From: Rubrivivax sp. A210
Lineage (GTDB): Bacteria > Pseudomonadota > Gammaproteobacteria > Burkholderiales > Burkholderiaceae_C
NCBI RefSeq assembly: GCF_904426505.1
Contig: NZ_CAJGBN010000001.1
Span: 186,001 to 250,000 of the forward strand
DNA length: 64,000 nt
Direction of reading: 5' to 3'
Position numbers and translations under genes: made by a program
The notes under the pieces: generated by a model
Told to the model about the DNA's origin: nothing
The model's database searches: none
Seen by the model: only the letters and a program-made list of their open reading frames with translations
Shown: in pieces, positions 10,373 to 29,611 of the stretch
Layout of the letters: every line of letters begins with the position of its first letter
Numbering within the stretch: the first letter of the stretch is position 1

Positions 10373-10432
10373 GTGGGGGGATGGGGCTTGGCCGGACCTT
10401 GCGTCGGCGGCGGGCGGCAGCGTGGCCGCCGC

Positions 10433-10438: not shown

Positions 10439-10544
10439 GCCCGCGCATTCTATCGACGGCCCGGCCGCAGCCCTGCGCAGCCGGCCGCCGTTCCTCGGCG
10501 CAGTCCCCGGCGCCCCGTCCTGCGAGCGCCGCCTCGCACCAGCC

Positions 10545-11939
10545 ATGACCCTCCGCATCCACAACACCCTCACGCGCCGCCTCGAGGCCTTCACGCCCAT
10601 CACGCCGGGCCAGGTGCGCATGTATGTCTGCGGCATCACGGTCTACGACCTGTGCCATCTGGGCCACGCGCGCTTCATCCTGGCCTTCGACGTGGTCTAC
10701 CGCTGGCTGCGTGCCAGCGGCTATGCGGTGAACTATGTGCGCAACATCACCGACATCGAGGACAAGATCATCCGCCGCGCCCTCGAGCGCGGCATCAGCA
10801 TCCGCCAGCTCACCGACGAGATGATCGCGGCCATGCACCGCGACTTCGCCGCACTCGGCGCCGCCGTGCCCACCCACGAGCCGCGCGCCACCGACTACGT
10901 GCCGCAGATGCTGGACATCATCGGCCGCCTGCAGCAACGCGGCCTGGCCTACCAGGTGGCGACGGCAAGCAATGGCGGCGGCGACGTCAACTTCTCGGTG
11001 CGCCGCTTTCCCGGCTACGGCAAGCTCTCGGGCAAGTCGCTCGACGAGTTGCGCGCCGGCGAGCGCGTGGCGGTGCAGGACGGCAAGGAAGACCCGCTGG
11101 ACTTCGTGCTCTGGAAGTCGGCCAAGCCCGACGAACCCGCCGACGCCCAATGGCCCAGCCCCTACGGCCCCGGCCGCCCGGGCTGGCACATCGAGTGCTC
11201 GGCGATGAGCTGCGCCCTGCTGGGCGAGCCCTTCGACATCCACGGCGGCGGCCAGGATCTGCAGTTCCCGCACCACGAGAACGAGATCGCGCAGAGCGAG
11301 GGCGCCAGCGGCGGTGCCGAGTTCGTGCGCACCTGGATGCACAACGGCTTCCTGAACATCGACGACACCAAGATGTCCAAGAGCCTGGGCAACTTCTTCA
11401 CCATCGCCGATGTGCTGAAGAAGTTCGACGGCGAGACGCTGCGCTTCTTCATGCTGCGCACGCATTACCGCAGCCCGTTCAACTTCAGCGACAGCCTGCT
11501 CGAGGAATCGCGCAGCGCGCTCAAGCGCCTGTACACCGCGCTGGAGGCCGCGGGCGACCCCCCGGCGCTGGAGCACATCGACTGGGACGAGCCGCGCGCC
11601 GCCGCCTTCAAGGCGGCGATGGACGAGGACTTCAACACCCCGGGCGCCACCGCCGTGCTGTTCGAGCTGGCCAGCGAGATCAACCGTGGCCGCCATGAAG
11701 ACGCCGCGCTGCTGCGCGCGTTGGCCGCCACCGTGGGCCTGCTCGCCAGCCGCGCCGCCGACTATCTGCGTGGGGGCAGCGGCCTGGACGCCGCGGCCAT
11801 CGAGGCCCGCATCCAGGACCGCATCGCGGCCAAGAAGGCGCGCGATTTCGCGCTTGCCGACCGCATCCGCGACGAGCTGGCGGCCCAGGGCATAGAGCTC
11901 AAGGACTCGGCCCAGGGTACGAGCTGGGTCAAGGCCTGA
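10545..11939 (+). CDS. cysS: Cysteinyl-tRNA synthetase
   Basis: This 464-residue class I synthetase charges tRNA-Cys. It has the HIGH motif as HLGHAR, the KMSKS motif as [11 protein letters not shown], and the zinc-binding residues of the family (Cys in YVCGITVYD, Cys in GWHIECSAM, His in FPHHENE) that select cysteine. The C-terminal DALR-like helical domain ([21 protein letters not shown]) is complete. Length equals the E. coli enzyme (461). It begins a plus-strand run with alkA, accA, tilS and lysC. The spacing to alkA is 5 bp. Confidence 0.98.
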
Positions 11940-11944
11940 AGCCC

Positions 11945-12679
11945 ATGCCCCGGCTCCAGCGCGAAGCCGCGGCTGCGGCGGTGGATGCCGCGGTGGCGGC
12001 CACGCCAGCGCCAGGAGCGCCAGCCGTCACGTCGGTCGAGACCCCCGCCGAAACTCCCGGCTACTGGGACGAAGCCTGCCGCCACCTCGGCCGTCGCGAC
12101 CGCGTGATGAAGAAGCTCATCCCGCGCTTCGGCGAGGCCCGGCTCAGCACCCGTGGCGATGCCTTCACGACGCTGGCGCGCTCCATCGTCGGCCAGCAGA
12201 TCTCGGTGAAGGCGGCGCAGTCGGTGTGGCTGCGCTTCGTCGCCATCGCCAGCCCCCAGGGCCTGCCGCTGCGGCCGGCCGTGGTGCGCGAGCTGGCGGT
12301 GGACGCGATGCGCGGGGCCGGTCTCTCGGCGCGCAAGTGCGAGTACCTGCTTGACCTGGCGTGCCACTTCGGCGACGGTGCCGTGCACGAGGCCGACTGG
12401 CTGGCGATGGACGACGAGGCCATCATTGCCGAGTTGGTGGCCATCCGCGGCATCGGCCGCTGGACGGCCGAGATGTTTCTCATCTTTCACCTGCTGCGCC
12501 CCAATGTGCTGCCGCTCGACGACGTCGGCCTCATCAAGGGCATCAGCCTCAACTACTTCAGCGGCGAGCCGGTCTCGCGCGCCGAGGCCCGCGAGGTCGG
12601 CGAGGCCTGGGCGCCTTTTCGCTCGGTGGCCACTTGGTATATTTGGCGCAGCCTCGACCCCCTACCAGTGGAGTACTGA
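11945..12679 (+). CDS. alkA: DNA-3-methyladenine glycosylase II
   Basis: This 244-residue base-excision-repair enzyme removes alkylated purines. It has the helix-hairpin-helix-GPD signature [30 protein letters not shown], whose second Asp is the catalytic residue. The first ~35 residues are an Ala/Pro-rich extension. It lacks the N-terminal beta domain of the 282-residue E. coli AlkA, as do many proteobacterial homologues. There is no ada gene next to it. Its last codon precedes accA by one base, so the two are translationally linked. Confidence 0.92.
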
Positions 12680-12680
12680 T

Positions 12681-13652
12681 TTGTCCAAACGCCACTTCCT
12701 GGAATTCGAGCAACCCATCGCCGACCTCGAGTCCAAGATCGACGAGCTGCGCTATGTGCAGAACGAATCGGCGGTCGACATCTCCGACGAGATCGAGCGC
12801 CTGAGCCAGAAGAGCCAGCAGCTCACGCGCGATATCTACGCCAGCCTCTCGCCCTGGCAGGTGACGCAGATTGCGCGCCACCCGCAGCGTCCCTACACGC
12901 TGGACTACGTGCGCGAGATCTTCACCGACTTCGAAGAGCTGCACGGCGACCGCCATTACGCCGACGATCTTTCCATCGTCGGCGGGCTGGCCCGCTTCAA
13001 CGGCCGCGCCTGCATGGTGCTGGGCCACCAGAAGGGTCGCGACACGAAGGAACGCACCCAGCGCAACTTCGGCATGAGCCGCCCCGAGGGCTATCGCAAG
13101 GCGCTGCGCCTGATGAAGGTGGCCGAAAAATTCGGCCTCCCGGTCTTCACTTTCGTCGACACCCCCGGCGCCTATCCCGGCATCGGCGCCGAGGAACGCG
13201 GCCAGAGCGAGGCCATAGGCCGCAACATCTTCGAGATGGCCCAGCTTGAGGTGCCCATCGTCAGCACCATCATCGGCGAGGGCGGCTCCGGCGGCGCCCT
13301 GGCCATCAGCGTGGCCGACCAGGTGCTGATGCTGCAGTTCAGCGTCTACTCGGTGATCTCGCCCGAGGGCTGCGCCTCCATACTCTGGAAGACTGCCGAA
13401 CGCGCCTCTGACGCCGCCGAGGCCCTGGGCATCACCGCCCACCGCCTCAAGGCCCTGGGCGTGATCGACAAGATCGTCAATGAACCCGTCGGCGGCGCTC
13501 ACCGCGACGTGCCCTGGATGGGCGCCCAGCTCAAGCGGGCGCTGGCCGATGCGCTGCGCCAGAGCGCCGACCTTTCGGTCAAGGAATTGCTGCAGCGCCG
13601 CTACGAGCGCCTGCGCTCCTACGGCCGCTACAGCGACACCAAGGAAAGCTGA
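12681..13652 (+). CDS. accA: Acetyl-CoA carboxylase carboxyltransferase subunit alpha
   Basis: This 323-residue subunit pairs with AccD to transfer CO2 from biotin to acetyl-CoA, making malonyl-CoA for fatty acid synthesis. The family core [10 protein letters not shown] and the N-terminal helical segment ([19 protein letters not shown]) are intact, and the length fits (319 in E. coli). A TTG start at 12681 is preceded by GTGGAG about 8 bases upstream and begins the conserved N-terminus exactly. The stop overlaps the tilS start (TGATG). Confidence 0.97.
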
Positions 13653-15955: not shown

Positions 15956-16046
15956 GGAGTCGTGACCGAGTGGCCGAAGGTGCTCCCCTGCTAAGGGAGT
16001 ATGCGCCAAAAGCGCATCGAGGGTTCGAATCCCTCCGACTCCGCCA
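15956..16046 (+). tRNA. tRNA-Ser (anticodon GCT)
   Basis: This 91-base tRNA has a 7-bp acceptor stem (GGAGTCG with CGACTCC), discriminator G and an encoded CCA end. The anticodon stem CTCCC/GGGAG encloses CTGCTAA, with anticodon GCT at 15990-15992, which reads AGC and AGU. The long variable arm (ATGCGCCAAAAGCGCATC region) is the class II feature of serine tRNAs. The T arm GAGGGTTCGAATCCCTC is perfect. Confidence 0.98.
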
Positions 16047-16081
16047 AGTGCCCTGGCCCTGGTTCCAGGCACTTTGAAATC

Positions 16082-16104
16082 AACGCCCCACCGGGGCGTT
16101 TTTT
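16082..16104 (+). terminator. Intrinsic terminator after tRNA-Ser
   Basis: An 8-bp stem (AACGCCCC with GGGGCGTT, loop ACC) is followed by further T residues. A second, imperfect hairpin starting at the CCA end (16046-16075) precedes it. Only 14 bases separate the T run from the next start codon. Confidence 0.85.
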
Positions 16105-16118
16105 CATGGTGGTGCACG

Positions 16119-17396
16119 ATGTTCTGCAATCCGCCCCAAGCCCTGACGCGCCTGCGGCTGGCCCCCGATGTCGAATGCCGCATCGCGGATGGCAAGGCCG
16201 AGATGGTGGTCGGCGGACAGACTGCACTGGCGACCCATGATGAGCCCTCGCTGCGCCTGCTGGCTGCCCTACGGGCCGGCACCCAGCCCGCGGGCCATGG
16301 CCATGAACTCGCGGTGGCCGTGCGGCAGTGGTTGTCCGCCGGCGTTCTCTGCGTCGAGTTCCTGTCCACCGCTGCAGGCCCGGCCCTTGCGCGGCTGCAT
16401 TCCACCGGCTATGCCCAGGCCCTGCGCATCGATGAGCCGCCCGCAGGCTGGCGCTTGCGGAGGGGCGCGGTGCTGTGGGCCGAAGATGAGGGCTGGCGCC
16501 TGCGCCATCCGCTGTCGCGCTTTGAGGTGTGGTTCATGCGGGCGTCGATGCTCGATGAGTTGCGGGCCGGCGCAGGCTCGAATGCGTCGCTGGCGCGCGC
16601 TCTCTGGGCTGCCAACTTGCTGGAGGCCGCCGGCGAAAGCGCACCGCAGGCGACAGGCTGGAGCGCCGAAGACCTGCTCTTCCACGCCGCCACCCGTCGC
16701 CACGCTGACCATCGCGCCCGCGGCAAGCGCCTGATCCGGCCCGACTGGGCGCCACCACGGCCGGCGGTCGTGCCCAGCGCCGCCCCGAGCGAGGCCTTGC
16801 GCCAACGCCTGCGGGCCGTCTCTTTCGAGTCTGTGCTGGCCGCTCGCCGCAGCGTGCGCGGCCCCTTGCCGCCGCCATCCAAAGATGAATTGCTGGCCCT
16901 GCTCAACGCGGCTCAGGCCGAGCGTGGCGACAGGCCTACGGCACCCTGCCGCGCCTACCCGATGGCCGGCGGCCTGCAGGCCTCGGACTTTCATCTGGTG
17001 ATGGCGGCCGATGCGGACGCGCCGGCCATGCTCTACCGCCACGATGCCGCGGCAGGCCTCCTGCAGCCGGTCGCCGCGCCGGCCGGCAGCGCCGAGCGCC
17101 TGCTGGAAGAAGCCGGTCAGGCCTGGGGAGCCAGCCACGGCCGGCCTTGCGCGCTCATCGTCATCAGCACCCGCCTGGCCGAACTGGGTGCCCGCTACGA
17201 GGCCACGGCCTACCGCCTGGCCCTGCTGGAGGCCGGCGGCGCGCTGCTGCTGCTGAATCAGTTGGCCACGGCCTTGGGCCTGGGCGCCTGCGTGCTGGGC
17301 AATGGCGACAGCGAACTCTTTGCGCTGGCCTCGGGCCTGCCCGAGCATGAGGCGCCCGCCATCGCCGAGATCGCCATCGCCGGCCGCTTGGGCTGA
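16119..17396 (+). CDS. SagB-type azoline dehydrogenase (RiPP tailoring)
   Basis: This 425-residue protein matches the SagB/ThcOx family, FMN enzymes that oxidise thiazolines or oxazolines in peptides to thiazoles or oxazoles. The N-terminal part (1-180) is the poorly conserved adaptor typical of SagB proteins. It is followed by the family hallmark WSAEDLLFHAATRRHADH at 181-198 and by a nitroreductase domain from about 236 (VLAARRSVRGPLPPP, CRAYPMAGGLQASDFHLVM, LLLLNQLATALGLGACVLG). The start at 16119 has no good ribosome binding site and lies 14 bases after the tRNA terminator, so its promoter is unclear. It converges on the YcaO gene (3-bp gap), its likely partner. Confidence 0.85.
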   Translation: MFCNPPQALTRLRLAPDVECRIADGKAEMVVGGQTALATHDEPSLRLLAALRAGTQPAGHGHELAVAVRQWLSAGVLCVEFLSTAAGPALARLHSTGYAQALRIDEPPAGWRLRRGAVLWAEDEGWRLRHPLSRFEVWFMRASMLDELRAGAGSNASLARALWAANLLEAAGESAPQATGWSAEDLLFHAATRRHADHRARGKRLIRPDWAPPRPAVVPSAAPSEALRQRLRAVSFESVLAARRSVRGPLPPPSKDELLALLNAAQAERGDRPTAPCRAYPMAGGLQASDFHLVMAADADAPAMLYRHDAAAGLLQPVAAPAGSAERLLEEAGQAWGASHGRPCALIVISTRLAELGARYEATAYRLALLEAGGALLLLNQLATALGLGACVLGNGDSELFALASGLPEHEAPAIAEIAIAGRLG

Positions 17397-17399
17397 GGC

Positions 17400-18914
17400 T
17401 CAGCGGTAGGGATGGGGCCCCGGCGCGGGGGGCCAGCCCGCGGCCTGCCGGTCGGCCTCGGGCGTGCCGATGCGGCCGAAGTTGAACAGCGGCCAACCTG
17501 GCGCCAAGACGCGGTGAACATGGAAGCCGGCCGCCGCGATGTCGGGCGACTGGATCGCCACGACCACGGCGGAAGGGGCCGCCTCGGCCATCAAGGCCTG
17601 CAGCGGCGCCGCCCCTGCTTCGGTCGGCAGCGGGCCGGTCGGCCGCGTCGCGCGCCGAATGGCATCGACCAATGCGCGCCCGCGCTGCGGCCCGGCATGC
17701 CAGCGATGGTGCGAGGCGGCATCGTCCAGCATGCGCAGGCGCGGCTGCTTGCGCAGGGGCTCGGGGTTCCTGACCAAGCCCTGCCAGCCCGACGCCGCTT
17801 CGAGCAGGGCGGCATCGGCCGCGGCCTCGATGTGCAGGCGTGCCGCGCTGCCGACCAGGAACCACGGCGCCTCGTCGTGCCACAGCAGGGCGAGAGCGAC
17901 AGCCGCCTGCGGCGCCCGGCCCAGCAGCGAAACTTGCCACTGCACGCCCGCCGCGTCCAGGCGCTGGCCGAGTTCTCGCGCCGCCGCACCCAGGTGGGCG
18001 GCACCCAGGGCCTGGCCGAAGTCCTGCAGATGCCAGGCGCGCGTCATCGTGCGGCGTTCCCACAGTTCCAGCAGCGCGCGTTCGGTGGCCTGGGCCGCGC
18101 TCAGGTGGGCGGCCGTGCCGTGTGAGTTCTGCGGGGCGTAGCGCGGCTCGTCGGGCCGCCATTCGCGGCTGAGGTAGGCCGCCGCGGCCGGCACCCAGAC
18201 CTTGGCGCCGTCGCGCAGCCGTTCACCGCGCACCCAGCCTATGCGCTGGCGGCCATCGAGCCGGGTCAGGCCCGCGGCTTCGCGCTGGGCCTCCGAGAGG
18301 CCGAAAAGCTCCGCGCCCAGGCTTTCTCCGGGCGCCAGTTCGCCGCGCCGCGCCAGGCGGATGCGCGACAGATCGGGCCGCAGCGCGCTGTAGCGCTCGA
18401 CCGCCTCGCCCAGCAGGCCTTGCGCTGCCGCCTCGGGCGTGAAGCCGTGGCCGCGCACGCCGATCTGGTCTTGCAGCCGCGGCATGTGGACACGGCCCGA
18501 GAGGCCGTGGCACAGCGCGTCGGCATCGACGCCCGGCGTGCGGCGCTGCAGGTCCGACACCAGGCCCAGCAGCGGGTCGCGCAGCGCGGCCAGCGGCACG
18601 GCGGGCGCACCCTTGGTGGGACTCTTGGGTGCAGCCGAACAGGACGGGCAGCCAGGCACGGCCAGCAGGGCATGGACGAAGGCCTGGCCGCCGTCCAGGC
18701 GCAGCACCGGCGCCAGCCAGCCGGGGCCGGGGTCCTGGGCCGCCAGCAAGGCCTGCAGTTCGGCATTGGGCGCGGGTTCTATCGGGCCCTGGGGCGCGAA
18801 GCCGGCCTCGCGCAGGCGCTGGCCCAGGCAGGCGATGCAGGGGCCGCCGCGCCGCCGGCGCATCAGGCAGAGGCCGGCGCGCGTGCGCCAGCCCATCAGG
18901 GCAGGGGGCTTCAC
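17400..18914 (-). CDS. YcaO cyclodehydratase with N-terminal zinc tetrad (SagD-like)
   Basis: This 504-residue protein ends in a YcaO domain (about 105-500) of the thiazole/oxazole-forming type. YcaO uses ATP to activate peptide backbone amides so that Cys, Ser or Thr side chains cyclise to azolines. YcaO segments LGEAVERYSAL and QATERALLELWERRTMT are visible. The first 100 residues hold two CxxC pairs (GPCIAC at 26-29, CPSC at 89-92). That zinc tetrad is typical of the E1-like partner protein's C-terminus, so this looks like a shortened partner fused to YcaO. A GTG start at 18914 overlaps the upstream stop as GTGA. An ATG at 18896 is the alternative. Confidence 0.87.
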   Translation of the reverse strand: MKPPALMGWRTRAGLCLMRRRRGGPCIACLGQRLREAGFAPQGPIEPAPNAELQALLAAQDPGPGWLAPVLRLDGGQAFVHALLAVPGCPSCSAAPKSPTKGAPAVPLAALRDPLLGLVSDLQRRTPGVDADALCHGLSGRVHMPRLQDQIGVRGHGFTPEAAAQGLLGEAVERYSALRPDLSRIRLARRGELAPGESLGAELFGLSEAQREAAGLTRLDGRQRIGWVRGERLRDGAKVWVPAAAAYLSREWRPDEPRYAPQNSHGTAAHLSAAQATERALLELWERRTMTRAWHLQDFGQALGAAHLGAAARELGQRLDAAGVQWQVSLLGRAPQAAVALALLWHDEAPWFLVGSAARLHIEAAADAALLEAASGWQGLVRNPEPLRKQPRLRMLDDAASHHRWHAGPQRGRALVDAIRRATRPTGPLPTEAGAAPLQALMAEAAPSAVVVAIQSPDIAAAGFHVHRVLAPGWPLFNFGRIGTPEADRQAAGWPPAPGPHPYR

Positions 18915-21900
18915 CGGGGCGGCGGAGCGTCCAGATCTTCCAGATGGCGGCGCACACCGTTGCGGAAGGTGGCGCGCATCATCAGGCAGAAGTCGTCGTG
19001 CGGCTTGCCGGCGATGGAGCCGGTGGCGGCATGGCTTTGCGCCATGCAGCCGCCGCCGCACAGGCCTTCGACCTCGCAGCCGGCGCAGCCTGCCATGCCG
19101 CCGGCATGGCGGGCAGCCACGTCGTCGGGCACGGGGATGCGGTGCTCGGCGGCGACGCTGGCGAGATCGGCGTATTCACTGTCAGGCACGGCATGGCAGA
19201 CCATCAGGCCGCCCGCCGGCGTGACGTAGAGCTCGCGCCCGGTGACGCCGCAGAAGTGGCCGGTGGGCGTGCTGTCGGCGAGCAGCATCTCGTCGGCCAC
19301 GCGCAGCTCGCCGGTGACCGGCAGGCCCAGGCGCCGGCCCTGCGCCCAGGCGGCTTCCAGCGCCTGCAGCATCTCCTGCGCCTGGCCGGGCTGCAGCGCC
19401 GGGCCTATCACCGGCTTGATGCCGACCGACAGCGGCGCATCGGGGTGCTGGTAGCGCAGCGCCGCGACATGGTCCAGCAGAGCCGGCAGGCCGGCGGCGT
19501 TGAAGGGCGTCAGCGTCACCGCGATGACCAGCGGCACGCGCGCCGCCACCAGGGCACGCGCGGCGCGGTCCACGCGCTCGAAGCTGCCGCGCTGGTTGCG
19601 GAAGACGCGATCGCGGTCGTTCACCGCGCCCACGCCGTCCATGCTGAGGTAGACCAGCACGTCGCCGCCCAGGGCCTGCAGCGCTGCCACCTGTTCGTGG
19701 TGGATCAGGGTGCCATTGGTATTGACCAGCCAGCGCACCGCGCCCGCCGGCAGGCCCGCGGTGGCGGTGGCGAAGAGATGCTGCATCAGCGGCCAGTTGA
19801 GGAAGGGCTCGCCGCCGAAGACGCGGATGGTCGAGCCCGGCAGGTCGCGCGGCTCCAGCAGGTCGCGCCAGGCGGCGACGGCGCGGTCGGCGGTCTCCAC
19901 GCTCATGGCCTGCCGCTTCTTGTCGCCCTCGTAGCAGTAGCTGCAGCTCATGTTGCAGCCGCCCTCGATGGTCAGGCGCAGGTGGTAGCCGCGGCGCGGC
20001 GCCAGTTGGCCGGCGCGCCAGCGGCGCAGCAGGTCGGGGCCATTGGGCAGGGGGCGCACCAGGGCTTCGATGTCCTCGACCTCGAGATTGCGCTCCTGCA
20101 GCGCCGGCCAGGCCGCGGCGGTGGCAGGGTCCAGTTCCACGGGCCCGCCGATGATGCGGTGGTAGACGAGGGCGCGGCTGCCAAAGGCCAGCAGGCGCAT
20201 GGGCCGGGCAAACTGCGCCGGCGGGCGCAGGCGTGCCGCCAGTTCGGCCTGCCAGGCGGCCAGCAGCGACTGCAGATCCTGCCCCGCCAGGCCTTGCACG
20301 CCAGCGTGCAGCGGGAAGGCCGCGCTGCGCCCGCGCAGGCCGCGCGCCAGCAAGGCGTCCAGCAAGCCATCGAAGCCTTGGCCCAATCCCCGCACGAGGA
20401 AGTCGACGAAATCGTGCGCCAGCCGGTAGCCGGGGTTGTCGTCCACCGGCAGTTCGGAGAACTGCAGCAGCGTGCTGGCTGGGCTGCAGCCCTCGGCACC
20501 GGCCAAGCAGGCGGTGACGAATTCGGCAAAGGCCTCGGCATGGGGCAGGGCGCCGGCCAGGCGCTCGGTATCCATGGTGGCGCCGGAGGCCCATTCGCAC
20601 AGGCCTTCCTCCAGCCAGGTCGGCACGCGCAACCCGCGTTGGCGCAGCGCGACGTGGGCGAGCTCGTGAGCCAGTTGTTGCTGAAAGACGCGCAGCCGCG
20701 TGCGCCCACCTTGCCGCAGCACGGCGACGCAGGCCGGCCCCTGCAGCACCACCACGGAGGAGGCCACCGTGCCCGCCATCCAGCGCAGCCAGGGGGCATC
20801 GTCAGGCAACTGGGCGGCACGGGCAAAGCAGGCGGCATCGGCGGCAATGAAGACGGCGATGGGATCGACCACCGGCCGCAGCCGCGACGGCAGGCAGGCC
20901 ACGGCCTGTTCCAGATGCGGCGCCAGTGCCTGCGCGGTGGCTGCAGTGGGTGCATCGGCGGCACCCAGGAGCAGGCCGCAGAGGCGGGTGAGCGAGGCCT
21001 CGTGCGGCGCCAGCGTCTCGAAGCGCTGGAGATCATCGCTATCCGTGCCGGGCTGCAGGGCGCCCAGCAAGCGCAATTCAGCCAGCGATTCAGCCAGCGC
21101 CTCGGCGTCGAAGATCTCGGCCGCTGCTGCTGGCGTGGCGCCGGGCAGGAAGAAGTCGAGCAGGTCGACCACGCCCTCAGAGACCTCGATGCCGGCCGCC
21201 GGCCAGGCCGGGTGCTGCAGCCGCCATTCGCCGTCCTGCTGCGGCGTGGCCGCCAGGTGCAGCGCAGTGCGCAGGCGCTCGTGCTCGGGGCTGGCAAACA
21301 TGCGGGCGGCTCCTCGGGCCAGTTGGCATTCGGCGTCGGGCTGGGCCTGCACGCCGGCGTGGTAGCGCACCATCATGCGCAGATAGCCGCGGCATTCGCG
21401 CTCGATGGCGCAGCCGCGGCAGGGCGCGCAGACGGCGCGCCACTCGCGTTGCAGCTGTTCCTGCATGTCAGGTGCGATGGCCGCCGCAACGTGCTCGAAA
21501 TGGCGATCGGGGAAGTGAGGGCGGAAGACGCGGCCATCGGGCCGCACCACCACGCTCACTGGCAGCGCGGCCGCCTCGCCGGGTGGGCGGCTGCCGCTGG
21601 TCCAGGGCCCGCTGACCGAGATTCCCAGTGCCAGGGCGCGGGCGCGCGCCGCCATCAGTGCCGGCAGCACCTGCCCGGGCTGGCCTACGCCCTGACCCAC
21701 GGGGTCGTCGGGCAGGGCCAGGAAGACCTGGTCGCAGCCGGCTTCATGGGCGCGTTCCATCAGTGCCACCAGCCGGTGCAGATTGCTGCCGGTGATGACG
21801 ACATTGAGCTGCATCGCCACACCGGCCTGGTGCAGCAGGACCAGGCCGCGCAATGCGGCGCTCAGGCTGGCGGCGCCGCTGTGCAGGCGGCGCTGGGCGT

Positions 21901-22360
21901 TGGATTCGAGGTCGGGCCCGTCCAGGCTGACATGGGCCCGCGCGCCCAGCGTGGCCAGGCGCGCGGCCAGCGCCGCCGTCACCAGCGTGGCATTGGTGTT
22001 GACGATGGGCGTGAGGCTCAGGCCGCCAGCGCGCAGGGCCTGCACCGCGGCTAGCGCGGCCTCCAGGCCCTTGGGGTTGACCAGGGGTTCGCCGCCATAC
22101 AGCGATAGATCGAAATGCGCCACGCCGCGCTCGCCCACGCACTGCGCGAAATCGTTGATGGCCCGGCGCACCAACTCCGGGCTCATCACGCGCCGCCCCG
22201 GCCGCTGGCCCTCGGGTACGGCGCTGGCCTGCTGCTCGGCGTGGAAATGGCAGTAGCTGCAGGTCAGGTTGCAGCCGTCAGCCAGCAGCAGGCGCAGATA
22301 GGGCGCACTGGCCGTGCGGGTCTGCTCCACATGGGCCAGGGTGCCGGGCGCGGCGGCCAC
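18911..22360 (-). CDS. Radical SAM - metallopeptidase-like - radical SAM/SPASM fusion protein
   Basis: This 1,149-residue protein has four recognisable parts. First is a radical SAM domain with CxxxCxxC at Cys30/34/37 and GGEPL at 89-93, followed by a short cysteine cluster (311, 314, 317, 323). Next is a small segment at about 380-440 that may be a winged-helix leader-binding module (inference). Then comes a gluzincin-like peptidase region with HELAH at 565-569 and WLEEGLCEW at 582-590. Last is a second radical SAM domain with Cys802/806/809 and GGEPF at 849-853, ending in a SPASM region (Cys1037, 1055, 1092, 1095, 1101, 1105, 1125). Radical SAM enzymes make thioether, C-C or epimer modifications in peptides. 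The GTG start lies 25 bp after the precursor stop. The exact reactions are unknown. Confidence 0.9.
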   Translation of the reverse strand: MAAAPGTLAHVEQTRTASAPYLRLLLADGCNLTCSYCHFHAEQQASAVPEGQRPGRRVMSPELVRRAINDFAQCVGERGVAHFDLSLYGGEPLVNPKGLEAALAAVQALRAGGLSLTPIVNTNATLVTAALAARLATLGARAHVSLDGPDLESNAQRRLHSGAASLSAALRGLVLLHQAGVAMQLNVVITGSNLHRLVALMERAHEAGCDQVFLALPDDPVGQGVGQPGQVLPALMAARARALALGISVSGPWTSGSRPPGEAAALPVSVVVRPDGRVFRPHFPDRHFEHVAAAIAPDMQEQLQREWRAVCAPCRGCAIERECRGYLRMMVRYHAGVQAQPDAECQLARGAARMFASPEHERLRTALHLAATPQQDGEWRLQHPAWPAAGIEVSEGVVDLLDFFLPGATPAAAAEIFDAEALAESLAELRLLGALQPGTDSDDLQRFETLAPHEASLTRLCGLLLGAADAPTAATAQALAPHLEQAVACLPSRLRPVVDPIAVFIAADAACFARAAQLPDDAPWLRWMAGTVASSVVVLQGPACVAVLRQGGRTRLRVFQQQLAHELAHVALRQRGLRVPTWLEEGLCEWASGATMDTERLAGALPHAEAFAEFVTACLAGAEGCSPASTLLQFSELPVDDNPGYRLAHDFVDFLVRGLGQGFDGLLDALLARGLRGRSAAFPLHAGVQGLAGQDLQSLLAAWQAELAARLRPPAQFARPMRLLAFGSRALVYHRIIGGPVELDPATAAAWPALQERNLEVEDIEALVRPLPNGPDLLRRWRAGQLAPRRGYHLRLTIEGGCNMSCSYCYEGDKKRQAMSVETADRAVAAWRDLLEPRDLPGSTIRVFGGEPFLNWPLMQHLFATATAGLPAGAVRWLVNTNGTLIHHEQVAALQALGGDVLVYLSMDGVGAVNDRDRVFRNQRGSFERVDRAARALVAARVPLVIAVTLTPFNAAGLPALLDHVAALRYQHPDAPLSVGIKPVIGPALQPGQAQEMLQALEAAWAQGRRLGLPVTGELRVADEMLLADSTPTGHFCGVTGRELYVTPAGGLMVCHAVPDSEYADLASVAAEHRIPVPDDVAARHAGGMAGCAGCEVEGLCGGGCMAQSHAATGSIAGKPHDDFCLMMRATFRNGVRRHLEDLDAPPPR

Positions 22361-22385
22361 GTTCAGCCCCCGGCGCCCGCGCCAC

Positions 22386-22625
22386 TCAGCCGCGCACGCA
22401 GCAGGCTATGCAGTCGGTCAGGCCCACGCGGCGCCCTGTGGTGAGCCACTGCGAGGTCTTGGCCGTGGTGAGGTCCATCTCGAGGCTGGCAGCGGCCAGG
22501 TCCGTGCCCCGCGCTGGCGTGAAGGCCAGCTCAGCGGGCACCGGCACCAGCTCGGTCACCACGGTGACATTGGCGGGCACCTTGATGCGCAGCTTGACGA
22601 CCTTTTTGATCGGAGGTTGGGCCAT
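22386..22625 (-). CDS. Candidate RiPP precursor peptide
   Basis: This 79-residue peptide is the first gene of the operon with the fusion protein and YcaO. The ATG at 22625 has a GAGG ribosome binding site at proper spacing; a longer frame upstream has none. Residues 1-40 are basic, valine- and proline-rich (KKVVKLRIKVPANV) and would be the leader. Residues 41-69 are Thr/Ser-rich with a single Trp60. The tail is LTDCIACCVRG with all three cysteines (72, 75, 76) of the protein, a fitting core for azole or thioether formation. I recognise no known precursor family. Its role is inferred from size, position and the cysteine tail. Confidence 0.8.
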   Translation of the reverse strand: MAQPPIKKVVKLRIKVPANVTVVTELVPVPAELAFTPARGTDLAAASLEMDLTTAKTSQWLTTGRRVGLTDCIACCVRG

Positions 22626-22672
22626 GAATTCCTCGCTTGGGTTGACGGACGCTGGGTCCGGGTGAAAGACAA

Positions 22673-22702
22673 AGTATGGAGCGGCGCCGCGCGCCCTGTC
22701 CA
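22673..22702 (-). promoter_or_regulatory. Probable promoter of the RiPP operon
   Basis: Reading the minus strand, TGGACA (22702-22697) is followed after 18 bp by CATACT (22678-22673). This is a reasonable sigma-70 pair about 50 bp upstream of the precursor start codon. Confidence 0.5.
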
Positions 22703-22777
22703 TCCCCGCGCCGCCGGAGATCCCCGCGGGCCGCGGGCGACTATGCTGCGCCACTCCCATCCCGGACGGCGCCGCCC

Positions 22778-24367
22778 GTGAAGCTCTGCCTGCTGTCGAT
22801 CAACTGCAACCACCGGCACTATTCGCTTGGCGTCTACGTGCTGGCGGCCATGGTGCGCCAGCACCTGCCGGAGGTGGGCGTGCGCGTCCACAACCATTCG
22901 GTGCGCACGACGCCGCGCCAGTTGCTGTTCGATGTGATGGCCGAGCCCGCCGACGTCTACGGCTTGTCGGTACACCACGGCCATGGCGACAGGGTGGTGG
23001 CGCTGGCGCGCGACATCCGGCGCCTGCAGCCTGGGGCGGTGGTCGTGATCGGCGGCGTCGATGTCGCGACGCTGGACGGCGCCAGCCTGGGTGGCTGCGT
23101 CGACTGGTGCGTGGTCGGCGAGGGCGAATGGGCCCTGGTGCATCTGTTGCAGGCGCTGCAGCGCGGCGAAGAGCCGGCGCCGCGGCCGGGCCTCGTGCGG
23201 CCGGGCCAGGCCACCGCGGCCGTGGGTGCCAAGCTGCTGCAACAGACCCATCTCGACGACTTCCCGTCGCCCTACCTGAACGGCGCCTTCGACGCCTGGG
23301 ACCGCCACCCCACGGCCTATGTCGAGACCTACCGCGGCTGCGTCTGGAACTGCAATTTCTGCCACGAGGGCCGTGGCCGCAGCGGCATCGCCAGCTATTC
23401 CGAGGCTCGCATTCGCGCCGAGCTCAACCTGCTGCTGGCGCGGCCCGAGGTCAGGCTGATCGAGTTTTACGACACCATCTTCAATGTCGAGGCGGCGCGC
23501 ACGCGCTGGCTGCTGCGCCACCTGATCGAGCACAACGCTCGCGGCGTGCGTTTCATCGGCGAGTTCATGCTCGAATGGCTGGACGACGAGGAGATCGCGC
23601 TGCTGGGCCAGGCCCGCTTCGCACTGATGGAAGTGGGCCTGCAGAGCAGCAATCTGCGCACGCTGCGGCGCAGTGGCCGCAAGACCGACCTGGACCGCTT
23701 CGCCGAGCGCGCCCGCGCCGTGCTGGAGCGCACCGACACCGATTTGTGCATCGACGCCATGTACGGCCTGGACGACGAGACGCTGGACGACTTCACGGCC
23801 ACGCTGGACTGGATAGGGCACCTGGAAGGCAGCAACGGCCGCCGCCCCACGCCCATCCTCTTTGCCACCCATGTCCACCCGGCGACGCGGCTGTTTCGCC
23901 GCAAGGGCCAGACCATGCTGCTGGACGCAGCCCGCGGCGGCCGCCCGCTGACGACGGCCACGCTCGCGCTGCGCGACACCGAGCGCTTCTACGAGATCTT
24001 CTACGGCTACCTCTGCCTGCGTGCCACCTTCCCGCGCAGCATGAACCGCGTCACCGGCGCACTGCTGCACCTGGCCGGCATCGAGCTGTCGCAGGTCTAT
24101 GCCGGCGTGGCGCGCGTGCTCAAGGCCGATGCCGAGACGCGCGTGGTCTTTGAGCAGGCCGACTGGAGCGAATTCCGCTCCAACCCCATGCTGCGGCTCT
24201 ACCTCGACGCCATCGACCGCCGCTACCTGCTGGCGGTGGCCGATGAACTGGGCGCCGCGGGAGATGGCCTGATCGAGGAATTGCAACGCTGCATCGCGCT
24301 GGAGCAAGGCGAGCCCGCCGCTCCATTGGAGCCCGACCCGCGCGGGGCCAGCACCGCCGCCGCGTGA
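22778..24367 (+). CDS. Probable B12-binding-domain radical SAM enzyme
   Basis: This 529-residue protein has an N-terminal Rossmann-like half (about 1-130, with VIGGVDVATLD and WCVVGEGEWAL) of the B12-binding type seen in class B radical SAM methylases, then a radical SAM core with Cys188/192/195 in YRGCVWNCNFCHEG. The C-terminal ~180 residues are helical and unassigned. Such enzymes often methylate unactivated carbons or rearrange peptides. The classical DxHxxG cobalamin-ligand motif is not obvious, so the domain may fold without binding B12. A GTG start at 22778 begins the fold. It is divergent from the precursor gene (152 bp), so it probably belongs to the same pathway. Confidence 0.82.
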   Translation: MKLCLLSINCNHRHYSLGVYVLAAMVRQHLPEVGVRVHNHSVRTTPRQLLFDVMAEPADVYGLSVHHGHGDRVVALARDIRRLQPGAVVVIGGVDVATLDGASLGGCVDWCVVGEGEWALVHLLQALQRGEEPAPRPGLVRPGQATAAVGAKLLQQTHLDDFPSPYLNGAFDAWDRHPTAYVETYRGCVWNCNFCHEGRGRSGIASYSEARIRAELNLLLARPEVRLIEFYDTIFNVEAARTRWLLRHLIEHNARGVRFIGEFMLEWLDDEEIALLGQARFALMEVGLQSSNLRTLRRSGRKTDLDRFAERARAVLERTDTDLCIDAMYGLDDETLDDFTATLDWIGHLEGSNGRRPTPILFATHVHPATRLFRRKGQTMLLDAARGGRPLTTATLALRDTERFYEIFYGYLCLRATFPRSMNRVTGALLHLAGIELSQVYAGVARVLKADAETRVVFEQADWSEFRSNPMLRLYLDAIDRRYLLAVADELGAAGDGLIEELQRCIALEQGEPAAPLEPDPRGASTAAA

Positions 24368-24426
24368 ACGACGCTGGCGTGACATCCTGGCGCCCCCGCC
24401 GGCCGCCCCTGGCCTAAGCTCGGCCC

Positions 24427-24729
24427 ATGGGTAGTTTCTCCTCCATCGCCGTGTCCGGCATGAATGCCGCGCAAGCGCGGCTGGACGCGGCGGCGCACAA
24501 CATCGCCAATGCCCAGACGCCGGCGCTGCGTCGCCTGCAGGTGGTGTCGGCCAGCCAGCCCCAGGGCGGCGGCGTGTCGACCGCGGTGTCGCAGCGCGAG
24601 GTCGACAACGGTTCGCTGGAATCCGACATGGTCGACCAGATCGTCGCCAAGCACAGCTTCCTGGCCAACCTGGCGGTCTTCCGCGCCGGCGACCGCATGC
24701 TGGGAACGCTGCTCGACGAGCGCGCCTGA
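24427..24729 (+). CDS. Short flagellar basal-body rod-like protein
   Basis: This 100-residue protein joins the N-terminal motif of axial flagellar proteins (SGMNAAQARLDAAAHNIANAQTP) directly to the C-terminal helix (GSLESDMVDQIVAKHSFLANLAVFRAGDRMLGTLLDE), leaving out the middle domain of FlgB, FlgC or FlgG. No other flagellar gene is near. The N- and C-helices are the parts that form the coiled rod core, so it could be a minimal rod subunit, a regulator of assembly or a remnant that is still open. It sits between the RiPP locus and fhs with no clear tie to either. Confidence 0.75.
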   Translation: MGSFSSIAVSGMNAAQARLDAAAHNIANAQTPALRRLQVVSASQPQGGGVSTAVSQREVDNGSLESDMVDQIVAKHSFLANLAVFRAGDRMLGTLLDERA

Positions 24730-24840
24730 GCCCTGAGCCTGGGCGCCGCGCATCGCGGCAATCCCGGGGGCGACAGGGTCGGCGCAGCCCGCACAATCGC
24801 CAGCCATCACCTCCGCCACCCGCCGCTGCCAGGAGCTGTC

Positions 24841-26517
24841 TTGCCCGACAACGACATCGATATTGCGCGCGCCGCGCACTTGCACCGCATCACCGACATT
24901 GCCCGCCAGCGCCTGGGCATAGACGACGAACACCTCGTCCCCTACGGCCACCACAAGGCCAAGCTGGCACTGCCTTTCATCGCCTCGTTGGCGGCGCGGC
25001 CACGGGGCCGCCTGGTTCTGGTGACGGCGATCAGCCCGACGCCGGCCGGCGAAGGCAAGACCACCACCACCATCGGTCTGGGTGATGCGATGGCGCAGAT
25101 CGGCAAGAAGACGCTGATCGCGCTGCGCGAGCCCTCGCTGGGCCCGGTGTTCGGCCTCAAGGGCGGCGCCACCGGCGGTGGCCGCGCCCAGGTGGCGCCG
25201 ATGGAGGACATCAACCTCCACTTCAACGGCGATTTCCACGCCATCGCCTCGGCCCACAACCTGCTGGCCGCGGCCATCGACAATCACATCCACCACGGCA
25301 ACGCGCTCGACCTTGACCTGCGCCGCATCAGCTGGCGCCGCGTGATGGACATGAACGACCGCGCTCTGCGCCAGACCACCATCGCCCTCGGTGGCCCGGG
25401 CGCGGGGTTTCCGCGCCAGGACGGCTTCGACATCGTCGCGGCCTCCGAGGTGATGGCCATCCTCTGCCTGTCGGAATCGCTGGCCGACCTGAAGCAGCGC
25501 CTGGCGCGCATCGTGGTGGCCGAGACACGCTCGCGCCGGCCTGTGCTTGCGGCTGAACTGGGCGTACACGGCGCGATGGCGGTGCTGCTGAAGGACGCGC
25601 TGGCGCCCAACCTCGTGCAGACGCTCGAGAACAACCCGGCCCTGGTACATGGCGGGCCCTTCGCCAACATCGCCCACGGCTGTAACAGCGTGCTCGCCAC
25701 GCGCGCTGCGCTGCACCTGGCCGACTATGTGGTTACCGAAGCCGGTTTCGGTGCCGACCTGGGGGCCGAGAAGTTCATCGACATCAAGTGCCGCGCCAGC
25801 GGCCTGCGCCCGGCGGCGGCGGTGCTGGTGGCGACGGTGCGCGCGCTCAAGTTCCACGGCGGCGTCGAACTCGCCGACCTTGGCCGCGAAGACCTGCCGG
25901 CGCTGCAGCGCGGCATGGCCAATCTCGAGCGCCATCTGCACAACCTGCGCGAGGTCTTCGGCCTGCCCTGCGTGGTGGCCATCAACCATTTCGCCGGCGA
26001 CACCGAGGCCGAGCACGCGCTGCTGCGCCAGCACATCGGCGGCCTTGGCGTGGCGGTACACACGGCGCGCCATTACACCGAGGGCGGGCGCGGCGCCACC
26101 GCACTGGCGCAGGAAGTGGTGCGCCTGTGCGAGCAGGTGGCCGAGCCGCGCCTGGCCTATGCCGACGGGGAGACCCTGTGGGACAAGATCAACCTGCTCG
26201 CCACGCGCATCTATGGCGCCGCCGGCGTGCGCGCCGCGCCCGCGGTGCGCGCCCGCATCGAGGCGCTGCAGGCCGCCGGCCATGGCCATCTGCCGGTCTG
26301 CGTGGCCAAGACCCAGTACAGCTTTTCCACCGACGCCAAGCTGCGCGGCGCGCCCAGCGGCCATCTGCTGGACGTGCGCGAGGTGAGGCTGGCGGCCGGT
26401 GCCGGCTTCGTGGTGATGATCTGCGGCGAGATCATGACCATGCCCGGACTGCCGCGCTCGCCCGCGGCCGAGCGCATCGATCTGGACGAGGCGGGCGAGA
26501 TCGTCGGCCTGTCCTAG
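24841..26517 (+). CDS. fhs: Formate-tetrahydrofolate ligase
   Basis: This 558-residue enzyme joins formate to tetrahydrofolate with ATP, giving 10-formyl-THF for one-carbon metabolism. The ATP-binding segment [18 protein letters not shown] and the GPAGxR-like core ([22 protein letters not shown]) are present. Length equals the family norm (about 557). The TTG start at 24841 follows AGGAGC by 5-6 bases and begins at the conserved N-terminus. The 110 bp upstream show no riboswitch that I can recognise. It converges with the RND pump gene. Confidence 0.97.
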
Positions 26518-26527
26518 GCGGCGCGCT

Positions 26528-29500
26528 TCATGCCGATTCGGCCTCGGGCGTCAGCACCGGCCCGCGGCCGCTCCAGCGGTCGAGCGCGAGGTAGATCACC
26601 GGCGTGATGTAGAGCGTGATGGCCTGGCTGAAGACCAGGCCGCCCACCACGGCCAGGCCCAGCGGCTGGCGCAGTTCGGCGCCGGCGCCAATGCCCAGCG
26701 CGATGGGCAGGGCGCCCATCAGCGCCGCCAGCGTGGTCATCATGATGGGGCGGAAGCGCAGGATGCAGGCCTCGCGGATGGCATCTGCCGGCGCCATGCC
26801 GCGGTGGCGCTGGGCATCGAGCGCGAAGTCGATCATCATGATCGCGTTCTTCTTGACGATGCCGATCAGCAGCAGGATGCCGATGGTGGCGATCAGCGTC
26901 AGATCCTGGCCGAAGAGCATCAGCGTGGCCAGCGCGCCTACCGCGGCCGAGGGCAGGCCGGCCAGGATGGTGAGCGGGTGGATGTAGCTCTCGTAGAGCA
27001 CGCCCAGCAGCACGTAGATGACCAGCAGCGCGGCCACGATGAGGATGGCCTGGCTGCCCTGCGAGCTCTTGAACACGGCCGCATCGCCGCCATAGCTGGT
27101 GATCACCGAGGCCGGCATGGCGATGGCCTCGCGCACGCGGTCGATGCGCGCCGTGGCGTCGCCCAGGGCGGTGCCGGGGGCCAGGTTGAACGACACCGTC
27201 ACCGCCTGCAGCTGGCCGACGTGGTTGATGGCCGTGGGGCCGACGCCGCGCTCCACCGTGGCAAAGCTCGACAGCGGCACCAGGGCGCCGCCGCTGGCGC
27301 GCACGTAGATGCCGGCGAGTGCGCTCTCATCCTGCCTGGCCTCGGGCGCCACTTCCATGATGACCTGGTAGCTGTCGGCGGCGCCGTAGATCGTCGACAC
27401 CTGGCGCTCGCCGAAGGCGCTGAACAGCGCCGAGCGCACCGATTCGATGGAGACGCCCAGGGTGTTGGCGCGGTCGCGGTCTATCTTCAGCCGCGCCTGC
27501 AAGGCGCGCAGCTGGGCATCGCTGGTGACGTCGCGGAACAGCGGGTCGGCGCGCAGGCGGTCCTGCAGCTTGTTGGCCCAGTCATTGAGACCTTCGGACT
27601 GCACGCTCTGCAGGATGTACTGGTACTGCGCCCGGCTCTGGCGGCCGCCCAGCTGCAGGTTCTGCACCGGGCGCATGAAGACATTGATGCCGGCCACCTC
27701 GCGCAGCTTGCGCCGCAGGCCTTCGACCACCTGCTTCATGGCCGCCCGCTCGGCGCGCGGCTTGAGGCTCACGAACATGCGGCCGGTGTTCTGCGAGCCG
27801 CTGCCGCCGTTGAAGGAGCTGACGGCAAAGACATTCGGGTCGGCGCGGAAGATGGCCGCGGCGCGCTCCTGCAGGCGCACCATCTCGGGGAAGGACGTGT
27901 CCTCGGCGGCCTCGGTGCTGACCTGGATCTGGCCGATGTCCTCTTCCGGGAAGAAGCCCTTGGGGATGAGCACGAAGAGCACCGCGGTGGCGGCAAAGGT
28001 GGCCAGGGCCACCAGCAGCACCGTCTTGCGGTGGCGCAGCGCGGCGTCCAGCGTGCGCGTGTAGGCGGCCAGCAGGGCCAGGAAACCGCGCTCGAAGCCG
28101 CGCACCAGGGCGCCAGGCGGCTTCTTGTGCGCCTCGTCCCCCAGGAAGCGGCTGGCCAGCATGGGCACCAGGGTCAGCGACACAAAGGCCGAGACCAGGA
28201 TGGCCAGGCCCACCACCACTGCGAACTCGTGGAACAGCAGGCCTATCACGCCCGGCATGAAGAAGATGGGAATGAACACCGCCACCAGCGAGGTGGAAAT
28301 GCTGATGATGGTGAAGCCGACCTCGCGCGAGCCACGCAGCGCCGCCTGGAAGGGCGGCACGCCGTCCTCGACGTGGCGGATGATGTTCTCGAGCATCACG
28401 ATGGCGTCGTCGACCACCAGGCCCACGGCCAGGGTCAGGCCCAGCAGCGAGATGTTGTCCAGGCTGTAGTTCAGCCCCCAGAGCAGGGCCACCGCGCCCA
28501 CCAGCGAGACCGGCAGGCTCAGGGCCGGAATCACGGTGGCGACGAAGCGGCGCAGGAAGAGAAAGATCACCAGCACCACCAGCGCGATGGTGCCGGCCAG
28601 CGTGAGGCTCACGTCGTGCAGCGCGTCGCGCACCGAAACCGAGCGGTCGTTCACCGGCGTCAGCGCCACCGACTGCGGCATCTGGGCCTTGAGCGCCGGC
28701 AGCGCGGCGCGCACGGCGTCGACCACGCGCACGGTGTTGGCGCCGGGCTGGCGCAGCACGGCCAGGGTGATGGAGTTCTCGCCGTTGAGCGTGGCCCAGC
28801 TCTTGAGTTGCTCGACGCTGTCCAGCACCGTGGCCACGTCCTTGAGCCGCACCGAGGCGCCGTTGCGGTTGGCGACGATGAGCTCGGCAAACTCGGCCGC
28901 ATTGGCCAGCTGCCGGTTGGCCTGCAGCGTGAGTGTCTGGCGCGGGCCATCGAGCGTGCCCACCGGCGTGTTGACATTGGCCGCGCGCAGCGCCGCGCTC
29001 AGCTCATCGAGGCCGATGTTGCGCGCCGCCAGCGCCTCGGGCAGCACGCGCACGCGCACCGCGTAGCGCTTGGGCCCGAAGATGTTGACCTGGGCCACGC
29101 CGTCCAGCGTCGACAGCGTCGGCGTGATCAGGTGCTCGGCATAGTCCTGCAGCTCGCTCGGCGCCAGCGCGGGCGAGGTGAGGGCGATCAGCAGCACCGG
29201 TGCATCGGCCGGGTTCACCTTGCGGTAGGAAGGCGGCGAGGTCATGTCCTGCGGCAAGGCGCGCTGCGCACGCAGCAGCGCCGCCTGCACGTCCACCGCC
29301 GCCGCATCGACCGAGCGGCCTTCCTCGAACTCCAGCGTCAGCGAAGTGCTGCCCAGGGTGCTGGACGAGCTCAGCGTCTTGAGGCCGGGGATGGTCTGGA
29401 ACTGCTTCTCGAGCGGCAGCGCCACCGAACTGGCCATGGTTTCCGGGTTGGCACCGGGCAGCGCGGCCGAGACATTGATGACCGGCGTGTCGTAGCTGGG

Positions 29501-29611
29501 CAGGGCCGCCACCGGAATGCTGCGGTAGCCGATGACGCCGGCCAGCACGATGGCGGCGTTGAGCAGCACCGTCGTGACCGGGCGGCGGATGAAGAGCTCG
29601 GACAGGTTCAC
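26528..29611 (-). CDS. RND multidrug efflux transporter (HAE1 family)
   Basis: This 1,027-residue inner-membrane proton-driven pump is of the AcrB/MdtB type. It has twelve transmembrane segments in two pseudo-repeats. TM4 carries the paired aspartates of the proton relay (GLVVDDAIVMLENI), and the segment GFFPEEDIGQIQV is characteristic of the MdtBC/MexF-like branch. The GTG start at 29611 overlaps the adaptor gene stop (GTGA), so the two are coupled. No outer-membrane channel gene follows, so it must recruit a TolC-like protein encoded elsewhere. The substrate range is unknown. Confidence 0.93.
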   Translation of the reverse strand: MNLSELFIRRPVTTVLLNAAIVLAGVIGYRSIPVAALPSYDTPVINVSAALPGANPETMASSVALPLEKQFQTIPGLKTLSSSSTLGSTSLTLEFEEGRSVDAAAVDVQAALLRAQRALPQDMTSPPSYRKVNPADAPVLLIALTSPALAPSELQDYAEHLITPTLSTLDGVAQVNIFGPKRYAVRVRVLPEALAARNIGLDELSAALRAANVNTPVGTLDGPRQTLTLQANRQLANAAEFAELIVANRNGASVRLKDVATVLDSVEQLKSWATLNGENSITLAVLRQPGANTVRVVDAVRAALPALKAQMPQSVALTPVNDRSVSVRDALHDVSLTLAGTIALVVLVIFLFLRRFVATVIPALSLPVSLVGAVALLWGLNYSLDNISLLGLTLAVGLVVDDAIVMLENIIRHVEDGVPPFQAALRGSREVGFTIISISTSLVAVFIPIFFMPGVIGLLFHEFAVVVGLAILVSAFVSLTLVPMLASRFLGDEAHKKPPGALVRGFERGFLALLAAYTRTLDAALRHRKTVLLVALATFAATAVLFVLIPKGFFPEEDIGQIQVSTEAAEDTSFPEMVRLQERAAAIFRADPNVFAVSSFNGGSGSQNTGRMFVSLKPRAERAAMKQVVEGLRRKLREVAGINVFMRPVQNLQLGGRQSRAQYQYILQSVQSEGLNDWANKLQDRLRADPLFRDVTSDAQLRALQARLKIDRDRANTLGVSIESVRSALFSAFGERQVSTIYGAADSYQVIMEVAPEARQDESALAGIYVRASGGALVPLSSFATVERGVGPTAINHVGQLQAVTVSFNLAPGTALGDATARIDRVREAIAMPASVITSYGGDAAVFKSSQGSQAILIVAALLVIYVLLGVLYESYIHPLTILAGLPSAAVGALATLMLFGQDLTLIATIGILLLIGIVKKNAIMMIDFALDAQRHRGMAPADAIREACILRFRPIMMTTLAALMGALPIALGIGAGAELRQPLGLAVVGGLVFSQAITLYITPVIYLALDRWSGRGPVLTPEAESA

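Follow-up and report, generated by a model that had tools for sequence, protein, structure and literature searches.

What would a bacterium make with a short cysteine-tailed peptide, a YcaO protein and three radical S-adenosylmethionine (SAM) cores, two of which sit in one polypeptide? The question is raised by a gene cassette of Rubrivivax sp. A210, found in a window (the whole stretch of DNA analysed, 64,000 nt) that covers positions 186,001-250,000 of the forward strand of NZ_CAJGBN010000001.1. An initial annotation had proposed five genes here, encoding a peptide, a double radical SAM fusion, a YcaO protein, a convergent SagB-type oxidase and a divergent B12-type radical SAM protein. All five are present, and the description as a ribosomally synthesized and post-translationally modified peptide (RiPP) type of locus, in which YcaO and a conserved CC-tailed peptide accompany three radical SAM cores (two in one fusion), was borne out. 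We propose that this is a rare conserved RiPP cassette in which the DC...CCVRG tail of the peptide is probably turned by YcaO into azol(in)e rings, is likely cross-linked and methylated, and is released, by the fusion and the B12 enzyme. The parts of the cassette, in window coordinates, are:

22386-22625, minus strand: precursor peptide, 79 aa, one of a family of 53 (E<=1, own included), with a counterpart of 57% identity in the matching position of a second locus (L104)
22389-22415, minus strand: C-terminal tail DCIACCVRG, the presumed core (Cys72, Cys75, Cys76), with CCVRG in 53/53
18911-22360, minus strand: fusion protein, 1149 aa (PF04055 in two stretches; AlphaFold2 (AF2) model; 15-row alignment)
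21326-22309, minus strand: N-terminal radical SAM half of the fusion (PF04055 at residues 27-203)
21050-21274, minus strand: first winged-helix segment, like a RiPP recognition element (RRE), residues 363-437 (AF2 model)
20216-21013, minus strand: HExxH domain of peptidase-MA type (motif conservation; PF13485)
18932-20209, minus strand: second winged helix and radical SAM/SPASM half (all seven SPASM cysteines)
17400-18914, minus strand: YcaO protein, 504 aa (PF02624)
16119-17396, plus strand: SagB-type flavin mononucleotide oxidase (TIGR03605 below cut-off; profile match to CyaGox)
22778-24367, plus strand: B12-binding radical SAM protein (PF02310 and PF04055 over cut-off)

The peptide, fusion and YcaO genes follow each other in this order on the minus strand and are tightly coupled, with 25 bases between peptide and fusion and a 4-base overlap (GTGA) of the fusion TGA with the YcaO start. 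From this overlap, which is mirrored in the second genome, the YcaO start first placed at 19061 was corrected to GTG 18914. The SagB-type gene converges on YcaO at a distance of 3 bases, and the divergent B12-radical SAM gene is separated from the peptide by 152 bases. The assignment of the latter stands by both of its domains (PF02310, 39.1 bits vs cut-off 32.1; PF04055, 52 vs 29.5), and its start is more likely GTG 22778 since its homologue in the second genome begins at the equivalent residue.

The second genome (G173, locus L104) is that of Piscinibacter sakaiensis, now Pseudideonella sakaiensis in the NCBI taxonomy, which we take to be the degrader of polyethylene terephthalate. Its peptide is P0029 of our precursor set, letter for letter, and its B12 protein, fusion and YcaO are 63%, 55% and 47% identical to those of the window. 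Gene order and orientation match those of the window, with the B12 gene diverging from peptide, fusion and YcaO; peptide and fusion lie 26 bases apart if the fusion starts at ATG 9159, and the YcaO start ATG 12791 overlaps the fusion stop (12792-12794), again by 4 bases. Co-occurrence, proposed with the initial annotation as a check, was thus found for peptide and YcaO in the one other genome that could be read. The cassette is flanked there by a LuxR-type regulator (PF00196) on one side and by a protein with what looks by eye like a twin-arginine translocation signal (no NCBIfam match) on the other; as these neighbours differ from those of the window, the cassette lies in a different chromosomal setting.

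Searching the protein collection for the precursor with a two-row profile (240 candidates) yielded 53 peptides at E<=1, counting those of the window and sakaiensis, and all but one score E<=1.3e-14, indicating that the family is more than chance. Every one of them ends in CCVRG at its C-terminus. Positions L12, P17, N19, D51, L52, K56, T57, W60 and C75-G79 are invariant, and Asp71 and Cys72 are kept in 94% and 98%, respectively. The window peptide consists of a conserved strand-like leader (residues 8-27, with the strand KKVVKLRIKVPANVTVVTELV), a conserved MDLTxxKTxxWL and the tail. Cysteines N-terminal to the tail occur in just two of the 53 precursors, and the tail itself carries three cysteines (24 peptides) or four (29 peptides). 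Fifty precursors fall into three tail classes, [IMLTV]ACC (n=24, the class of the window), DCNCCC-type (n=11) and DC[GSA]NCCC or DCTSSCCC (n=15); P0079, P0080 and P0081 lie outside them. P0081 is a variant of 137 aa with an N-terminal extension that keeps KVPANVTV, DLTSAKTxxWL and CACCVRG (E 0.038). The window and sakaiensis genomes each gave one precursor peptide, plasmids gave zero matches and viral contigs 26 pattern matches with zero confirmed. An unusual nucleotide constraint on the peptide gene was considered and rejected, synonymous codon change being 0.29 vs 0.28-0.41 in neighbouring genes.

For the metagenome matches, linkage of fusion, precursor and SagB genes was taken from the equal size of their longest contigs and not from the contigs themselves. 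By this measure an [IMLTV]ACC precursor is paired with a DCNCCC-type precursor on contigs of 8534, 3536, 1612, 977 and 4232 bases, contigs of 71078 bases carry two precursors of the third class, and contigs of 1402 bases carry two [IMLTV]ACC precursors, a match that is possibly chance. If ACC- and NCCC-tailed precursors do pair in this way, either two separate products or one product in two parts may be made.

The fusion protein is built in the order radical SAM, winged helix, HExxH/WLxEG domain of peptidase-MA type, winged helix, and a full SPASM radical SAM half that is CteB-like. Its AF2 model has a pLDDT (predicted local distance difference test) of 82.3 and a pTM (predicted template modelling score) of 0.79, and it is on this model that both RRE-like winged-helix assignments are based; the first segment is predicted as strands followed by three helices. 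The N-terminal half carries the motif CNLTCSYC and additional cysteines at 314, 317, 323 and 345, all kept in at least 90% of 15 aligned rows. In the SPASM half C802, C806 and C809 together with C1037, C1055, C1092, C1095, C1101, C1105 and C1125 are invariant in the same alignment, and the best fold match over residues 718-1143 is CteB.

YcaO is recognized as a YcaO cyclodehydratase by PF02624 (126.5 bits vs cut-off 25.7), and its EAVERYS- and ELWER-type segments align with LynD in a weak match (E 0.0075). Its N-terminal part bears two Cys pairs and a TIGR03882 match of 20.6 of 36.9 bits, the best stretch covering 94-128 of 164; we read it from its sequence as a C protein that may have been reduced to its end, and apart from this piece of TIGR03882 no leader-binding domain was recognized in YcaO. 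An 11-row profile of the SagB-type protein matches CyaGox, presumably a thiazoline oxidase, at 161.5 bits. Among its 13 homologues, 12 are close (45-68% identity) and one, P0028, is distant (31%). Lys-Tyr is catalytic in McbC-type enzymes; CyaGox and P0028 have K-Y, and the window protein and 12/12 close homologues have R-Y at this site. The solved relatives of the B12 protein are TokK and CysS, cobalamin-dependent methylases, as we presume at least of CysS.

The chemistry of the cassette, all of which we infer, could then proceed as follows. The leader strand would dock as an extra strand on the winged helices of the fusion, which may also serve YcaO. YcaO would form thiazolines by cyclising the cysteines of CC (or CCC), and SagB, where present, might oxidise these to thiazoles. 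The CteB/PapB-like SPASM half would form a thioether from the separate first cysteine, Cys72, and the B12 enzyme would add a methyl group, possibly at Val77, which is invariant and adjoins the rings. Finally, the HExxH domain would cut off the leader and free the tail.

The cassette is rare. Among 5.8 billion proteins, with scoring confined to the 7995 candidates that had most words in common with it, the fusion is represented by 15 members including that of the window, the others being 40-80% identical to it; the sakaiensis fusion is not among them. In genomes, a 15-row profile at E<=1e-40 found carriers in 1/81 of the genus, 2/399 of the family, 1/369 of the class and 1/398 of the phylum, in samples that overlap and count the genome of the window each time. 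When the family was searched again, this time by the peptide profile, the same two genomes came back (2/319). Radical SAM matches in 61/100 relatives (window genome included) were set aside as superfamily background since, apart from the window, only one domain was covered. Five of the 14 other fusion proteins have a precursor on an equal-sized contig (P0002/P0062, 10313 bases; P0004/P0046, 13514; P0005/P0075, 103470; P0006/P0057, 6103; P0008/P0072+P0077, 71078), and two have SagB there as well (P0002/P0027 and P0004/P0021). SagB was seen, in these few cases, with ACC- or NCCC-tailed precursors of the branch of the window. It was not seen with the third tail class, by whole-genome search in sakaiensis and by size only for the 71078- and 103470-base contigs; the 6103-base contig is too short to judge. 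Plasmids gave 40 records for the fusion and five for YcaO, none covered at 80%, and the one plasmid neighbourhood inspected for the fusion held no such cluster. The best plasmid match of YcaO, L118:9286-12472 on the Rhizobium Ti plasmid pTiL51_94, shows two YcaO-like open reading frames (ORFs) flanking an IS3 transposase gene, with a SagB gene adjoining.

Proteins of related layout occur beyond this branch. A contig profile scan kept 80 loci, of which L021, L022, L023, L027 and L037 were compared with the cassette proteins and the ORFs of four were listed. Two loci of Desulfobacterales, L021:601-4287 and L022:9872-13633, have the radical SAM-HExxH-radical SAM layout and are 24-31% identical to the window fusion by piece; L023 and L027 matched in one radical SAM stretch and L037 in two neighbouring, separate ORFs. 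Upstream of each of the L021 and L022 fusions is a peptide frame that is hydrophobic near its N-terminus and contains PCGGx repeats, mostly with a Cys at every fifth residue; in L021 no NCBIfam match was found for it. Such a protein was present at E<=1e-50 in 3/291 genomes of Desulfobacterales, including those of L021 and L022. In the third, G1515, the protein (L113:9945-12756) consists of the HExxH domain and one radical SAM half and has no N-terminal radical SAM half; an 83-aa GGACGG (GG-Cys) peptide frame is next downstream, and a frame that resembles by eye an ATP-binding cassette exporter lies within 3 kb. The coordinates noted in G1515 around this shorter relative are L113:15224-16978 and 9945-12756. 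The HExxH-radical SAM unit thus appears to recur beside Cys-bearing peptide frames, suggesting that the fused HExxH module is used with different precursors, and a YcaO partner is seen only in the branch of the window.

Several results weigh against the proposed cassette chemistry. Among the NCBIfam matches listed (for two of the proteins, the best 25 of 77 and the best 25 of 29), all models stay below their cut-offs for all five cassette proteins. In particular, the fusion scores 180.7 bits with the PapB model (cut-off 340), YcaO 115.3 of 219.25 bits with the SagD-family model, the SagB-type protein 64.9 bits vs 78.4 with TIGR03605, and the B12 protein 60.7 of 281.85 bits with the RiPP C-methyltransferase model TIGR03975. 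SagB was not found by TIGR03605 in the whole sakaiensis genome, although the same model finds that of the window. YcaO lies beside the fusion in two genomes, the only two read; in the wider family it had no match in genome G1241 and one in G1242, on another contig than the fusion. Nine of the 14 other fusion proteins, including that of Roseibium sp. M-1, encoded on a contig of 6.6 Mb, are not tied to a precursor. No transporter or immunity gene was recognized inside the window cassette, the nearest transporter being an AcrB-type pump (26528-29611) past a formate-tetrahydrofolate (THF) ligase. The part of the initial annotation that relies on SagB was not supported as stated: with no match in the sakaiensis genome SagB does not seem to be obligatory, and as its KY motif also reads RY, it is uncertain that azoles rather than azolines are made.

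What the product does was considered next to how it is made. A product with a fixed role, i.e. a metallophore or a cofactor, is at least as likely as an antibiotic because the tail end is invariant and no exporter or immunity gene was recognized in the cassette; the invariance in itself suggests a product with a fixed job rather than a weapon. More specifically, and as a tentative suggestion, the C(C)CC-VRG tail may be cut to an oligo-thiazol(in)e that acts as a metal-binding cofactor or metallophore, which would constitute a new RiPP class. Such a product could be seen, by analogy, as the ribosomal counterpart of the thiazoline chains of pyochelin and yersiniabactin, and one protein would combine the leader binder, two radical enzymes and the releasing peptidase. 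Somewhat doubtful, in our view, is that the cassette is a weapon whose product is a bacteriocin or antibiotic of the common linear azol(in)e type. YcaO with SagB is the classical set for such peptides and several equal-sized contigs seem to carry two precursor variants, yet a tail that is nearly fixed, with CCVRG in every family member, and the failure to recognize an exporter or immunity gene in the window cassette or among the scanned L104 ORFs speak against it.

The release of the tail by the fusion depends on the nature of its HExxH domain. HELAH is encoded at 20654-20668 (minus strand) and Glu585 of WLEEG at 20606-20608 (minus strand), this Glu being, we assume, the likely third metal ligand as in gluzincins. 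HExxH stands at the aligned position in 14/15 fusion proteins, P0015 having a gap there, and WLxEG is kept in 15/15. The metallopeptidase-like domain of the initial annotation is therefore real by its motifs, HExxH with a downstream Glu as in the peptidase-MA type, but weak by profile: Peptidase_MA_2 (PF13485, cut-off 32.4 bits) reaches at best 20.1 bits in the window and 22.2 in L021, and passes the cut-off in L113 (33.5). Slices of the domain gave a weak match to the flagellinolysin metallopeptidase (best E 0.013), the sole one bearing on HExxH. The listed matches of a fold search with the whole fusion were all radical SAM proteins, and a search of solved structures with the domain profile returned two rows at chance level only (E 0.71 and 1.8). 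A structure model of the slice, made from three rows, was discarded (pLDDT 41.3).

HExxH enzymes in RiPP loci, including radical SAM-fused ones, can be alpha-ketoglutarate (alphaKG) dependent hydroxylases that were formerly called metallopeptidases, according to PMC12636437 and PMC13060819. The domain could accordingly be a hydroxylase of ChlB/ChlH type, the leader being cut by a protease elsewhere. PMC12636437 reports that one HExxH protein with a fused radical SAM domain, earlier annotated as a metallopeptidase, proved to have hydroxylase activity, and that such fusions make up the largest cluster in the network of the alphaKG-HExxH family. We nevertheless regard a hydroxylase here as unlikely: TIGR04267, the alphaKG-HExxH model, has zero matches at the fusion locus in 5/5 genomes (E<=1; control genomes gave no match over cut-off either) and zero on the HExxH-domain slices, and the over-cut-off Peptidase_MA_2 match in L113 and the conserved Glu of WLxEG point the other way. 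A peptidase, probably for the leader, is favoured on these motifs. It is likewise improbable that the peptide is never released and instead works as an intact small protein in which the radical enzymes install a metal or redox site, comparable to the gamma subunit of quinohemoproteins. In favour of this are its conservation over leader and middle as well as tail, and a match of the fusion to the model of the quinohemoprotein maturase at 142.7 of 453 bits; against it are the fused HExxH domain with WLxEG, which argues for cleavage, and the lack of any recognized gene for a partner enzyme in the cassette.

Around the cassette, two further features were mapped:

22673-22702, minus strand: promoter-like site upstream of the peptide (sigma-70-like consensus match only)
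15956-16046, plus strand: tRNA-Ser(gct) at the cassette edge (ARAGORN; Rfam tRNA)

The sigma-70-like match is the sole one in 16000-24900 (shuffle mean 0.3), and a terminator-like match (22696-22679) overlaps it. At gathering score Rfam found the tRNA alone and no riboswitch. On one flank the tRNA-Ser adjoins an aspartokinase-type gene, and on the other a short flagellar-rod-like ORF is followed by the formate-THF ligase and then the AcrB-type pump. The tRNA-Ser directly adjoins the cassette and may be an insertion site; the fusion gene was not found in 80/81 genomes of the genus.

Together, the fusion, the precursor family and their combination with YcaO and a B12 radical SAM enzyme appear to be new. 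In full-text literature searches no listed title or abstract opening names the fusion or the CCVRG family, a weak negative as most subscription papers lay outside these searches. If the proposal is right, a single polypeptide would recognize the leader, carry out two radical reactions and remove the leader and, partnered with YcaO, form a compact assembly line. As the core operon is present in a named species, P. sakaiensis, the question can be tested directly.

Thiazole/oxazole-modified microcins (TOMMs) and linear azol(in)e peptides, such as microcin B17 and those with CyaGox-type oxidases, share with the cassette YcaO and a Cys-bearing C-terminal tail, and probably a SagB-type oxidase and a piece of C protein on YcaO; in such pathways a C protein or RRE presents the leader to YcaO, and the flavin mononucleotide dehydrogenase is facultative. 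Unlike them, the cassette has no recognized leader-binding C protein, SagB had no match in one genome and has RY for KY, the radical SAM fusion dominates the operon and the tail end is invariant. The ranthipeptide maturases CteB and PapB, of a class with thioethers to a beta or gamma carbon, have in common with the fusion a winged helix, a radical SAM domain and a seven-Cys SPASM domain, and CteB is the best solved match; here, however, this unit is the C-terminal third of a protein with another radical SAM half and HExxH, and the PapB cut-off is not reached. That no class joins azole-forming and radical SAM enzymes would be too wide a claim; no description was found of the radical SAM-HExxH-radical SAM fusion or of the CCVRG precursor family. 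The nostatin A pathway combines a cyclodehydratase that forms thiazolines or oxazolines with an oxidase, a cobalamin radical SAM methyltransferase of class B and a PoyD-like epimerase (PMC11583998), and bottromycin clusters have a stand-alone YcaO alongside radical SAM proteins (PMC4603692). Both thus share with the cassette, as predicted here, azoline-forming and radical SAM enzymes, and nostatin A also an oxidase and a class B cobalamin methyltransferase, but their precursors are other ones, nostatin has in addition to its epimerase a LanM-like protein, and the available parts of these sources mention no such fusion. In the radical SAM-alphaKG-HExxH fusions (ChlB/ChlH), radical SAM and HExxH domains of one protein act on a RiPP precursor, as is predicted here; the fusion of the window differs from them by the missing TIGR04267 match, a peptidase-MA signature, two radical SAM halves and a YcaO partner.

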